NCBI GenBank assembly: GCA_947503155.1
Contig: CANNCL010000001.1
Span: 868,001-932,000 of the forward strand
Length of the DNA stretch: 64,000 bases
Direction: 5' to 3'
DNA from: an uncultured Erythrobacter sp.
GTDB lineage: Bacteria > Pseudomonadota > Alphaproteobacteria > Sphingomonadales > Sphingomonadaceae
The translations under genes were made by a program, and so were the position numbers. Numbering within the stretch: position 1 is the first letter of the stretch; each line of letters begins with the position of its first letter. This document shows, in pieces, positions 2,877 to 39,778 of the stretch. The notes below the pieces were generated by a model, which was given only the letters and a program-made list of their open reading frames with translations, was not told where the DNA came from and searched no databases.

Positions 2877-3630
2877 TATCGGAAGAGGCCGGTGCCTCTG
2901 GGCGTTCTTCCGAAGGCGGCGATGGTGTGGGCGCAGGAGGAGGAGCGGGCGGCTCAGGAGCCGTCAGCCCGGCGCGCACGAAATCTTCTGGAAAGGGTGC
3001 GAAGGCGGCAATCGTTTCCTTGCCGGCGCGCATCACCGTGATCGATTCGGCGTGCAGCATCGTGCGCGGTGCGCCTTTGTTCTGTCCGCGAACTGGTCCG
3101 TAAACTGGGTCGCCTAGCAAGGCCGTGCCCAGACCTTGCAAAGCGTGAACCCGCAATTGATGCGTGCGCCCGGTGGTTGGGCGGAACCGGATCAAAGAAC
3201 GCCTTTTGTCGCCCTCTCCAACGGTCTGCAAAAGCTCCCAATGCGAAACGGCAGGTTTGCCCTTTTTCGCCGCGATCATCCGCCAACCTTTTTCCGCTGA
3301 ACTGATTTTCGACAGCGACAATTCGATCGTGCCCGATTTCTCCGCCGGTTCAAAATCGATGATCGCCAGATAGGTCTTGCCAACGAGCCGGTCCTCAAAA
3401 GCCTTGTTGAATCGCTTCAAAGCTTTCGGATTGCGCGCCATCAGCAAGCATCCGCTGGTGTCGGTATCAAGCCGGTGGACCGCGACCGGTGGGCGCTGAA
3501 AACCCATTTTCAGCTGCTCAATATGGTCGAACAGAGCCGGGCCGCCGCGTTTTGGGCGGTCGACCGGCAGGCCAGCAGGTTTATTGATGACGAGCGCTTC
3601 GCCGTCTTCGAAGAGGATAGGAATTTGGAT
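2845..3630 (-). CDS. RluA-family rRNA/tRNA pseudouridine synthase, apparent ATC start
   Basis: Converts uridine to pseudouridine in RNA. The catalytic aspartate motif is HRLDTDTSGCLL, followed by KTYLAI and RTHQLRVHA, all typical of RluA, RluC and RluD. The ORF track starts at an internal ATG (3507), which would remove the conserved FEDGEALVINKPAGLPVD segment just upstream. That segment is intact in frame, but no ATG, GTG or TTG precedes it before an in-frame TGA. The best start is ATC at 3630 (reading I/M-QIPILFEDGEAL), with GGAG ending 8 nt upstream; ATT two codons later is an alternative. This gives 261 aa. The C terminus is a Pro/Glu-rich tail of about 40 residues. It lies 52 nt downstream of pabB/C. 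The exact substrate uridine cannot be told. Confidence 0.85.
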   Translation of the reverse strand: MQIPILFEDGEALVINKPAGLPVDRPKRGGPALFDHIEQLKMGFQRPPVAVHRLDTDTSGCLLMARNPKALKRFNKAFEDRLVGKTYLAIIDFEPAEKSGTIELSLSKISSAEKGWRMIAAKKGKPAVSHWELLQTVGEGDKRRSLIRFRPTTGRTHQLRVHALQGLGTALLGDPVYGPVRGQNKGAPRTMLHAESITVMRAGKETIAAFAPFPEDFVRAGLTAPEPPAPPPAPTPSPPSEERPEAPASSDNGAPETGNGQ

Positions 3631-35618: not shown

Positions 35619-37157
35619 CTATAGTCCGATAGATTCTGCCAGCTCTGCCGCCGCATCTTTCGGGCTGAGTTTGCCTTCGCCTTCGCGGTCCACGGCGAAA
35701 TTGGCCTCGCGCATCGCTTCCACGCTGATCGCTCCGATCAATGGCTCTAGCGCGCGGGCAATACCCGCATCCTCGGCAATTCGCGGGGACATCATCAGCA
35801 TCGCATCATAGCTCGGCAAGGCGCCGCGCGGGTCTTCGAGCACCACCAGCCTATCCGCCGCGATCCGCCCATCAGAAGTATAGGCGCTGATCACATCTGC
35901 CTCTCCCGAACGCAGCGCATTGTACATAAAGGTGGGCGAGAAATTGCGCGTTTCGCGGAAACGCATTCCGTAGGCGTCTCGCACTGCGATCCATTCCGGG
36001 CGTTCAAAGAATTCTGGGTCGCCGCCAACCGTCAGTTGCGGGCCAAAGCGGACCAATTCTTCGAGCGAACTCACGCCCAATTCTGCCGCACGGTCTTCGC
36101 GCATCGCAAAAGCATAGGCATTTTCAAAACCCAGCCGTCCCAACACGCGCACGCCGGTGTTGCTGCGTTCCCATTCGACGATGGTTTCATACATGACCTC
36201 GCGTCCGGGATTGTCGGTACGGCTCAGCTCGTTTGTCCAAATCGTACCGGTGTAATCGACGGATATATCAATGCTGGAGGATGCTACCGCGCTGTGCACC
36301 ACTGCTGAGCCAAGCCCGTCGCGATATTCGACCGAATAGCCTGCTTTCTCAAGCTGCGATCCGATCAATTGCGCGAGGATATATTGCTCAGAAAATTGTT
36401 TCGAAGCGATGATGATCGTGTCTTCGTCATCCCCGCCCGATTGATAGATAAGCGCGCCGCTCAATCCCATCGCGACCGCCGCAATTCCCGCGCCATATTG
36501 CCAGCGATTGCGCTTAGCAAAGCCGTTTTCGACGATACCCAGCAATGCATCAACCACCAGCGCCAATCCCGCGCTCGCGATACAACCCGCGAGCACCAGC
36601 GCCCAGTTTTGCGTCTGCAATCCGGCGAAGATCGGGTCGCCCAGGCTCGGCTGTCCAATCGTGGTCGCCAGCGTCGCGGCTCCGATGGTCCAAACGCTGG
36701 CGGTGCGGATGCCGGCCATCACGAAGGGCGCGGAAAGCGGGGCTTCGACCAGCGTCAATTTCTGCCAAGAGGTCATGCCGACGCCGTCCGCCGCCTCCAG
36801 CACGCCGGGATCGAGATTGGCCTGCGCCGTCACCGCATTTCGCAATATCGGCAGCAGCGCATAGAGCGCCAGCGCCAGCAGTGCAGGCAGGAACCCCAGC
36901 GTCGGCAAATCCTCCCCAAACACCGCGCGCAAGGACAGTAGGATTGGGAAAAACAGCGCGAGCAGCGCCAGCGCGGGAATGGTCTGAACAAGGCTGGCAA
37001 ATCCCAGCGCAATCCGCGCCACATTCTGCGAGCGGCTGGCCCATACGGCGAGCGGCAGCGCCACCAACATGCCAAGCCCGATAGCGCTGGCGGAAAGCAC
37101 GATATGCGAGGCAAACTTATCGCCGAGGCCGAGGAGGATGGTCCAAATCTCGTTCAT
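35619..37157 (-). CDS. Fused permease/substrate-binding subunit of osmoprotectant-type ABC transporter
   Basis: 512 aa. Residues about 1-215 are an ABC permease of the ProW/OpuB type (VQTIPALALLALFFPILL, ILRNAVTAQANLDPGVLEAADGVGMTSWQKLTLVEAPLSAPFVMAGIRTA, the EAA-loop region). Residues about 235-512 are an OpuC/OsmF-like substrate-binding domain (IIIASKQFSEQYILAQLIGSQLEKAG, DISVDYTGTIWTNEL, NFSPTFMYNALRSGEADVISAYTSDGRIA). Such fusions import glycine betaine, choline or other quaternary amines. Its ATG overlaps the ATPase gene's stop by 4 bp, so one unit supplies all three parts of the transporter. Exact substrate cannot be told. Confidence 0.92.
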   Translation of the reverse strand: MNEIWTILLGLGDKFASHIVLSASAIGLGMLVALPLAVWASRSQNVARIALGFASLVQTIPALALLALFFPILLSLRAVFGEDLPTLGFLPALLALALYALLPILRNAVTAQANLDPGVLEAADGVGMTSWQKLTLVEAPLSAPFVMAGIRTASVWTIGAATLATTIGQPSLGDPIFAGLQTQNWALVLAGCIASAGLALVVDALLGIVENGFAKRNRWQYGAGIAAVAMGLSGALIYQSGGDDEDTIIIASKQFSEQYILAQLIGSQLEKAGYSVEYRDGLGSAVVHSAVASSSIDISVDYTGTIWTNELSRTDNPGREVMYETIVEWERSNTGVRVLGRLGFENAYAFAMREDRAAELGVSSLEELVRFGPQLTVGGDPEFFERPEWIAVRDAYGMRFRETRNFSPTFMYNALRSGEADVISAYTSDGRIAADRLVVLEDPRGALPSYDAMLMMSPRIAEDAGIARALEPLIGAISVEAMREANFAVDREGEGKLSPKDAAAELAESIGL

Positions 37158-37954
37158 GACCCAGCCCCCGATTTTTCCATCGCGGCCAGCCGTTCGGCCT
37201 GTTGACGCGGCACCGCGACGAGGCCCTGCGCGATGTCGCCGCCTGCCCCGGCGAGCAATTCATGCGGGCTGTTATCCGCCACCAATTCGCCGAACGACAT
37301 CACCAGCACGCGGTCCGCGAGCAGCAACGCCTCTGCCATATCGTGCGTCACCATGATTGTGGTGAGGCCAAGTTTTTCATGCAGTTCGCGCACTTTTTCG
37401 CCCAAAGCATCACGAGTGATCGGATCAAGCGCGCCGAAAGGTTCATCCATAATCAGCAGCTCTGGATCGCCAGCCAGCGCGCGCGCCACGCCGACACGCT
37501 GACGTTGTCCGCCGGACAATTCATCGGGCATACGGCTGGCCATTTCCGGTTCAAGTTCCACCAGAGACAGCAGTTCAGTCACGCGTGCATGCGGCAATTT
37601 CTCGCCCGCAAGGCGCGGGCCGATGGCGATATTTTCACCCACTGTGAAATGCGGAAACAGGCCGATCCCTTGAAACACATAGCCGACCCGCCGGCGCAAA
37701 GTTGACGGCTTGAGTGCGGTCACATCTTCGCCGCCGAACAAGACGCGTCCACCGCTGGGCGTGACCAAAGTGTTGACCATTTTAAGCAATGTCGATTTGC
37801 CGGAACCCGACGACCCGACCAGCGCGACAAAGCTGCCTGCTTCAATTGTGCATGTGACACCGCCGACGGCTGTGACGTCGCCATAGCGGCGTTCTGCTGC
37901 GTCAAAAGTTAGGATGGCGCTCGGCGGTTTTTCTTGTGGCGGTGATGTTGTGAT
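37154..37954 (-). CDS. ABC transporter ATPase (osmoprotectant type), apparent ATC start
   Basis: ATP-hydrolysing subunit for the adjacent permease/binding protein. The ORF track begins at a TTG that cuts away the Walker A motif. The frame upstream is intact and reads ILTFDAAERRYGDVTAVGG, then FVALVGSSGSGKST (P-loop at about residues 47-55), but has no ATG, GTG or TTG before an in-frame TAG. ATC at 37954 (reading I/M-TTSPPQEKPP) has AAGGGG 7 nt upstream, giving 266 aa. Further motifs: Q-loop YVFQGIGLFPHFTVGENIA, signature ELSGGQRQRVGVARAL, Walker B LLIMDEPFGALDP and H-loop VTHD. The next frame's ATG (37905) cannot encode this protein. Confidence 0.86.
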   Translation of the reverse strand: MTTSPPQEKPPSAILTFDAAERRYGDVTAVGGVTCTIEAGSFVALVGSSGSGKSTLLKMVNTLVTPSGGRVLFGGEDVTALKPSTLRRRVGYVFQGIGLFPHFTVGENIAIGPRLAGEKLPHARVTELLSLVELEPEMASRMPDELSGGQRQRVGVARALAGDPELLIMDEPFGALDPITRDALGEKVRELHEKLGLTTIMVTHDMAEALLLADRVLVMSFGELVADNSPHELLAGAGGDIAQGLVAVPRQQAERLAAMEKSGAGS

Positions 37955-37961
37955 CGGTTTG

Positions 37962-37967
37962 CCCCTT
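37962..37967 (-). promoter_or_regulatory. Shine-Dalgarno that decides the ATC start of the ABC ATPase
   Basis: AAGGGG on the minus strand, exactly 7 nt before the ATC at 37954. If the ATC were ATG this would be an unremarkable start site. Confidence 0.55.
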
Positions 37968-38040
37968 GATGCAGGAGCCTAGAAGGCAAACGCGGCCCCG
38001 CCAAGTGTCCTGCTTTTATTGGCCCAAACATTTGGCCGCG

Positions 38041-39552
38041 CTAAGCAAGGAGCCGATCCGCAGGGATCGCAATGTCCGCTGCCAGCCCGATTTCCCGCCA
38101 ATCCTGCGTAAGAGAGCCGCCCAATTGATTCTCGACCGCCATTTTGACCAGTCGCGATCCAAAACCGGTTTCCGTCGGGGGAACCGCCGCCGGTCCGCCG
38201 CTTTCGCGCCATGCGATTTGCACGGTTTCCCCGGCGTGGATGATGTCGATCGACAGGCTTCCCTCGCCAACGCTCAGCGCGCCATATTTGGCTGAATTCG
38301 TGGCGAGTTCATGGAACACCAAAGCCAGCGGCGTCGCCGCTTTTGCGCCCGTTGCAACGTCGTCTCCGGTGATCGAAACCGCGCTGTGGCCGGGCACGCC
38401 ATATGGCGCCATCAGCACTTCCAACAGAGCTTTCAAATTGCCTTCTGGCCCGGCATCAATCTTCAACGCAAAGTCCTGCGCCCGGGACAAGGCGCGAATG
38501 TGATCGGACAAGGTCTCAGCAAAGGGTTTAAGGTCCGGCTTGCCGCGCGCATGCAGCGCCACCAAACCGGTGATGACAGAGAAAATATTCTTGATCCGGT
38601 GCGCCAATTCCCCGGCGAGCATTTCGCGCTCTTGCGAGAGTTGGTGCCGGTCGTGAATATCGGTCAGCGTGCCAAACCAACGAGCGGTTTCGGGATCGTC
38701 GCTGGATGGAACAGCGCGCGAGAGGACCCAGCGGTAACTGCCATCGGCCTGCCGTAAGCGCCATTCGTCATCAAACAGGCTGGCCGTGCTCATCGCGCGC
38801 TCTAGCTTAACCAAAGAGGCGTCGAAATCGTCAGGGTGGATCACTTCGCGCCAATCATCGACGCTTTTGCGCACGGATCGGCCAGTGACTTCGGTGAAGC
38901 GCGCATTGAAATAGTCGAACACTGGGCCGGGCGCTGCTGACCATGCGATATCCGGCACGCTGTCGAGCATGAATTGCAGGCGCTCTGCGCTCGCTTGCAA
39001 TTGGGTGCCGGCGGTGTTGGCTTCGCGGTGGGAGTGCAGCCTGCGCATCACCGCTTCGGCCAGCACAGTCAGGCCTTCGCGTTGCAGATCGGTCAGCGGC
39101 TTTGTGCGCGGCGCACTATCGATGACGCACAGAGCGCCCAGCGGCGCGCCTTCTGACGAGATCAGCGGCGCACCGGCATAATAGCGCAGCTGAGCTGGAC
39201 CTTTCACCAATTCGAAATCTGCAAAGACCGGGTCGCTTGCTGTGTCGAGAATTTCGAGCAGATCGGGCCGGAGCATGGTGTGAGCGCAAATGCTGGTCGT
39301 GCGCGCCGTGCGATCTGTGTCCAAGCCCTCAGCAACAATAAACCGCTGACTTTCGGCATCGACCAGACTGACTGCGGCGCTGCTGGCCCCGCACAATTGC
39401 GCGGCGAAACGCGTGATACGCGCAAGTTCCTCGTCCCCCGCCAGCGCCTCAGCATCAAAGCTGGCAAGCACCGTCAGGCGATTGTCATCGCCGCAAAACG
39501 TGTCCGCCGGAGCGGTGCCTGATGGCCACAGTGGGGGTTCGGTGAAACTCAA
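38041..39552 (-). CDS. HWE-family histidine kinase with GAF and PAS domains
   Basis: 503 aa from TTG 39552, which has AAGGAG 7 nt upstream; the ORF-track ATG lies 19 codons earlier in an unlikely leader. No membrane segments, so cytosolic. A GAF domain at about residues 30-175 (ITRFAAQLCGASSAAVSLVDAE, RYYAGAPLISSEGAPLGALCVID), a PAS/PAC domain at about 195-305 (DYFNARFTEVTGRSVRKSVDDWREVIHPDD, RLRQADGSYRWVLSRAVP), then the HWE kinase domain with His in ELAHRIKNIFSVITGLV, HELATNSAKYGALS and the name-giving WRESGGP. HWE kinases often act in light, stress or general-stress pathways. Upstream of the transporter genes on the same strand, 86 bp away; a link is possible but unproved. Confidence 0.92.
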   Translation of the reverse strand: MSFTEPPLWPSGTAPADTFCGDDNRLTVLASFDAEALAGDEELARITRFAAQLCGASSAAVSLVDAESQRFIVAEGLDTDRTARTTSICAHTMLRPDLLEILDTASDPVFADFELVKGPAQLRYYAGAPLISSEGAPLGALCVIDSAPRTKPLTDLQREGLTVLAEAVMRRLHSHREANTAGTQLQASAERLQFMLDSVPDIAWSAAPGPVFDYFNARFTEVTGRSVRKSVDDWREVIHPDDFDASLVKLERAMSTASLFDDEWRLRQADGSYRWVLSRAVPSSDDPETARWFGTLTDIHDRHQLSQEREMLAGELAHRIKNIFSVITGLVALHARGKPDLKPFAETLSDHIRALSRAQDFALKIDAGPEGNLKALLEVLMAPYGVPGHSAVSITGDDVATGAKAATPLALVFHELATNSAKYGALSVGEGSLSIDIIHAGETVQIAWRESGGPAAVPPTETGFGSRLVKMAVENQLGGSLTQDWREIGLAADIAIPADRLLA

Positions 39553-39778
39553 ACTATCGCTCCTTGCATAGCGCTCCAGAGACGTGCTGCCGCATCCATA
39601 CAACAACATTGGGACAGGTCAATTGGAACGCAGCGACATCAATAACTTAGCGGAGATCAACGGTTGTTATTGGCGGCAATGTTGGCGTTCTCTGACCAGA
39701 TTGCTAAAGCGCTTGCATTGGCTTTTTCAGCTGCGGGTGATCGCCCGCTAATACCTGATTTACATATGGAAGATTCCT

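Follow-up and report, generated by a model that had tools for sequence, protein, structure and literature searches.

An ABC transporter ATPase gene that almost certainly begins at ATC in a group of Erythrobacter

INTRODUCTION

The closest described cases of bacterial translation from AUN codons other than AUG come from infC, the gene for IF3, which starts at AUU in E. coli and at ATC in Streptomyces (PMC5472188). The sigR gene of Streptomyces has a GTC start and was shown to be repressed by IF3 (PMC5472188). In E. coli, raised IF3 inhibits leaderless AUG starts, noncanonical starts, and reinitiation without a Shine-Dalgarno (SD) sequence (PMC2268962). Translation of leaderless mRNAs reportedly depends on AUG (PMC5622118; PMC9031893), and in Caulobacter, also an alphaproteobacterium, such mRNAs are common. 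Start codon and SD evolve in compensation (Belinky et al. 2017; PMC5622118); among 61,358 ancestral AUG starts in 36 genome triplets, one switched to AUU and no switch to AUC was listed (PMC5622118), and a clade-wide AUC start is therefore unusual. One list of bacterial genes preferring non-AUG starts is cited in PMC9845219. Literature searches for bacterial ATC starts gave Streptomyces infC alone, the remaining hits being mitochondrial, although an earlier mention of the gene described here is possible. Beyond infC, there is hardly any documentation of conserved AUC starts.

Here we describe an ABC ATPase gene in the window, by which we mean the whole 64,000-nucleotide stretch analyzed (C1:868001-932000 of the 3.14-Mb Erythrobacter genome G000). 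The genus sampled also contains Erythrobacter sp. NAP1, E. longus, and Porphyrobacter strains.

RESULTS

The ATPase gene of the window

The ATPase gene and its neighbors are laid out on the minus strand as follows.

38041..39609 (-), GAF-PAS-HWE histidine kinase, the gene upstream of the ATPase (domain search)
37979..37981 (-), in-frame TAG shutting the ATPase frame upstream, inside the proposed -10 (sequence)
37978-37154 (-), ATPase open frame, bounded upstream by TAG
37962..37967 (-), Shine-Dalgarno AAGGGG, 7 nt ahead of ATC (sequence; pairing -6.6 kcal/mol)
37952..37954 (-), ATC start codon, sole in-frame start candidate, ATC/ATT conserved in relatives
37154..37954 (-), OpuB/ProV-like ABC ATPase coding sequence including stop (PF00005, 119.4 bits; TIGR01186, 231.2 bits)
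37793..37816 (-), Walker A, GSSGSGKS, missing if the TTG start is used (translation)
37787..37789 (-), TTG, first canonical codon, just past Walker A and too late for a start (sequence)
35619..37157 (-), permease fused to an OpuAC substrate-binding domain (sequence and domain search)

The PF00005 match is well above its cut-off of 25 bits. The TIGR01186 score lies under the curated ProV cut-off of 326.6 bits, and the ATPase is therefore named only OpuB/ProV-like. The ATG of the permease-OpuAC gene overlaps the ATPase stop as ATGA. In a separate observation on the gene upstream, the first 70 codons of the HWE histidine kinase orthologue at G009:C2:142012-143574 contain no ATG, GTG, or TTG, and a CTG preceded by GAGG might act as its start.

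The first-pass annotation had pointed out that a start at TTG 37789 removes GSSGSGKS, that the frame lacks ATG, GTG, and TTG up to the in-frame TAG, and that ATC 37954 has AAGGGG exactly 7 nt upstream. We confirmed these readings. The TTG lies just after Walker A (37816-37793), none of the three canonical codons occurs in frame from TAG 37981-37979 through the end of Walker A, and GSSGSGKS is part of the ATPase only with the ATC start, before which AAGGGG stands at 37967-37962. The matching anti-SD, CCTCCTTTCT, was found in the genome's own 16S. When the window's own segment was shuffled, a near-cognate codon with an equally good SD arose in about 1.3% of shuffles. Judged from its sequence and that of its relatives, the ATPase gene in this group of marine Erythrobacter almost certainly begins at ATC, a very rare start (ATT in one relative).

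Conservation of the start across the genus

Orthologues were drawn from the genus genomes plus the named genomes, giving 101 distinct loci with a readable N terminus. An ATG stands near the expected place in 67 of them and GTG or TTG in 13, while 21 have only ATC or ATT there. In 12 of these 21 near-cognate loci (the window and 11 others) no canonical codon occurs from the upstream stop to the core of the protein. The start is ATC in 11 and ATT in one (G111, L277), mostly behind an SD, and the 12 include Erythrobacter sp. NAP1 and E. longus DSM 6997. Their spacers and neighboring codons vary, while AT[CT] is kept, as is AGGGG or a purine stretch like it. Because the alignment was anchored on the start codon, the invariance of its A and T follows from the method; its third base and the SD were free to vary. 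The shuffle P values of the 12 loci ranged from 0.013 to 0.22 per locus and, because the loci are related, cannot simply be multiplied without overstating their independence. On the tree, the near-cognate label must change at least 6 times on well-supported branches.

The second residue is Ala, Ser, or Thr in all 21 near-cognate loci, where the composition of the tail predicts 53% (P = 2e-6), as expected where the initiator Met is removed. The median SD pairing energy was -6.2 kcal/mol at near-cognate loci versus -0.9 kcal/mol at ATG loci (Mann-Whitney P = 3e-10, kinship ignored). Individual loci depart from this picture. The SD of L024 and L274 is no better than chance in shuffles, a CTG that could be the start immediately precedes ATC in L006 and L262, in-frame TTG codons occur far upstream in L005 and L006, and an ATG lies upstream or nearby in four loci within the ATC clade. 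Two distant relatives, L099 and L100, carry GGGG-N7-ATT-TCC downstream of a motif of the TTGGCC/TAGGGT type. TTG and GTG follow later in the frame, and this ATT may be a start too.

Promoter-like motif and leader architecture

A conserved promoter-like motif precedes the window gene.

37999..38004 (-), proposed -35, TTGGCG, at a fixed 17-nt spacer from the -10 (conserved motif)
37976..37981 (-), proposed -10, TAGGCT, ending 21 nt before ATC (conserved motif)

A strict scan of the ATPase locus found no sigma-70 consensus promoter, and the proposed motif fails that scan. No structured regulatory leader was found at the ATPase gene (z-score, +0.74). The motif YTGGC-N17/18-TA occurs upstream in 49 of 67 ATG loci, against 1.1 expected from shuffles; among the 21 near-cognate loci, 8 have it, against 0.3 expected. 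In the ATG loci that carry it, the motif mostly ends 7 to 11 nt before ATG (15 to 16 nt in four), and SDs are mostly weak or absent. This combination suggests that the mRNAs of ATG loci with a close motif are probably leaderless or nearly so. The motif ends 21 to 22 nt before ATC in G000, G060, G100, and G112 and 32 nt before it in G106, G037, and G108, which in these seven loci, the window included, gives space for a short leader with an SD.

Where a near-cognate locus lacks the motif, the ATC or ATT in most cases follows 3 to 26 nt, often 3 to 4 nt, after the end of an upstream frame about 155 to 390 codons long. In NAP1, a lipoprotein-like gene (L039:2361-3017) lies directly upstream of the ATPase gene, with its stop 4 nt before ATC, and occupies the place of the window's histidine kinase. 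A long upstream frame ending at the ATPase start was also seen in several other lineages. In Qipengyuania and others, a GTG start shares bases with the stop of the gene before it (GTGA).

All 49 loci with the close motif have ATG, while the other 52 comprise 18 ATG and 34 non-ATG loci (Fisher P = 5e-14, kinship ignored). From this pattern and the reported AUG dependence of leaderless translation, we propose that the range of start codons tolerated depends on leader architecture. The first-pass annotation had considered that orthologues might start elsewhere at a canonical codon. Many do have ATG, but these differ in 5' architecture, and the window's nearest relatives share ATC.

A second ATC start and the rarity of such starts

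That the window holds a second gene with an ATC start, as the first-pass annotation had claimed, was borne out by an RluA-type pseudouridine synthase gene.

3678-2845 (-), RluA-type frame, with ATC at 3630
3642-3639 (-), GGAG, 8 nt upstream of the RluA-type ATC (sequence)
3628..3630 (-), ATC start of the RluA-type pseudouridine synthase, a codon that is ATG in most relatives and ATT in the sister species G060

In G060 the ATT is preceded by the same GGAG 8 nt upstream, and in G046 an ATG lies two codons earlier. A 9-codon ATG...TGA frame (MGQSNHALP) is present at about 3682-3650 (-), between the upstream gene and the RluA-type ATC.

The wider search for ATC-start frames that had been suggested was made as two surveys of 400 kb of the window genome, aligned with the syntenic relatives G060, G046, and G009; such surveys miss frames with a chance upstream GTG or TTG. 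They recovered both window genes, and among about 300 conserved genes in the 400 kb no further clear near-cognate start was found. A genome-wide habit of ATC starts was therefore rejected. Since both cases lie inside the window, the pair is not an unbiased sample.

infC and initiator tRNA

The proposed inspection of infC was carried through for the gene itself. In the genomes read, ATA stands behind AGGAG, which lies 6 to 8 nt upstream, and infC of this genus thus appears to start at ATA. This ATA is eight codons ahead of the first ATG (L147, L149, L145, L146, L148, and L144; G000 and relatives), and in G037 a TAA lies two codons before it. Of 114 genomes from the genus, 56 have the exact pattern. 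An odd tRNA set was rejected as a candidate, the CAT tRNAs being normal among the 30 tRNA loci scanned. The initiator tRNA (L169:1501-1577) has the anticodon stem UCAGG/CCUGA, with A29-U41. E. coli initiator tRNA has G29-C41, one of three G-C pairs used in initiator selection.

DISCUSSION

Initiation at AUC through an SD leader, with the start codon following its 5' context, is to us a highly probable explanation of the data as a whole. The AGGGG-type SD in a short leader, of about 15 nt in the window if the conserved promoter motif is used, would place fMet-tRNA on AUC. The protein would be fMet-TTSPPQEKPPSAILTFD..., with the Met probably removed. Since the gene for the permease and binding protein begins with an ATG that overlaps the ATPase stop, expression of the entire transporter operon should be governed by the AUC start, which is presumed to be weak. 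In relatives whose promoter abuts the start, a leaderless mRNA is probable and the codon is ATG; with an SD leader or close coupling to the upstream gene, ATC, ATT, or GTG also occurs. The ATC start may plausibly be regulated, as was raised when the locus was first read, or may be merely tolerated. The AUC start may also be sensitive to IF3. A broader idea, that the gene is held in IF3-sensitive initiation by varying means (leaderless AUG, SD-led AUC/AUU, or upstream-gene coupling), is speculative and we think it unlikely. If true, start codon and promoter position would coevolve, and transporter output would track the state of the translation machinery.

The strongest competitor accepts that ATC is used but regards it as neutral, a mildly deleterious change that drifted in, tolerated because the gene needs little expression, with no regulatory role and no link to leader type. 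The rarity of near-cognate starts in this genome, a second case confined to a single sister pair, and a leader without structure all fit such drift. ATC nevertheless persists across much divergence although one base change yields ATG, and SD strength and 5' architecture track the codon, an association that kinship inflates. We give neutrality serious but somewhat less than even weight.

Initiation elsewhere would make AUC initiation unnecessary, whether at TTG 37789, at a CTG or ATT in the core, or at a distant codon through stop readthrough or frameshifting, and an in-frame ATG does lie at 38212, above the TAG. This is improbable, because the TTG loses Walker A and the core ahead of it is under purifying selection (pN, 0.07 to 0.16, and pS, 0.45 to 0.74, from the core start to the first canonical codon), the frame above ATC is shut by different stops in several relatives, and the core ATT and CTG have no SD in front.

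A single G/C miscall would suffice to turn a real ATG into the reported ATC, and most orthologues outside the clade have ATG. The presence of the independent isolates NAP1 and E. longus DSM 6997 among the ATC loci excludes an error in a single assembly. ATC or ATT occupies the corresponding position in numerous genomes that were sequenced separately, with differing surrounding bases, and rluA has ATC and ATT in two sister species. Sequencing or assembly error is thus hardly credible, in agreement with the first-pass annotation, whose idea that ATC starts are tolerated here is likewise upheld, since no start other than ATC would work and the codon is shared between species. Decay of an ATPase pseudogene that lost its start in this lineage would account for the missing canonical codon but can be dismissed with similar assurance, as the frame is intact to its stop in all clade relatives, pN is low relative to pS on either side of the TTG, and the operon partner is intact.

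The probable AUC start of the ATPase gene has a practical side, as gene finders limited to ATG, GTG, and TTG misplace such starts, here cutting off the ATP-binding site. Within the genus, moreover, the starts of a single gene form a natural series (ATG on probably leaderless mRNA, ATC or ATT led by an SD, and GTG coupled to an upstream gene) in which the relation between leader type and start codon choice is directly testable.

In gene order, an ATPase followed by a permease-OpuAC domain fusion, the operon resembles OpuB/ProU-type betaine/choline ABC transporters, although its ATPase falls under the proV model cut-off; it is a putative osmolyte-type system by likeness. The pairing of a weaker start codon with a stronger SD matches Belinky et al. 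2017 (PMC5622118). Nearly all switches there were to GUG or UUG, however, and here the codon change also accompanies leader architecture. With sigR the ATPase gene shares a conserved noncanonical start in a gene outside translation; it differs in using AUC/AUU within a transporter operon, and IF3 dependence is what has been shown for sigR. Like infC, it has an AUN near-cognate start behind an SD that is easily misannotated (PMC5472188). Unlike infC, it encodes no translation factor and has no autoregulatory loop, and in its relatives the codon becomes ATG, on a probably leaderless mRNA, or a coupled GTG. By sequence, the ATPase start joins near-cognate starts such as those of infC and sigR, where initiation takes place at a codon normally rejected by IF3.
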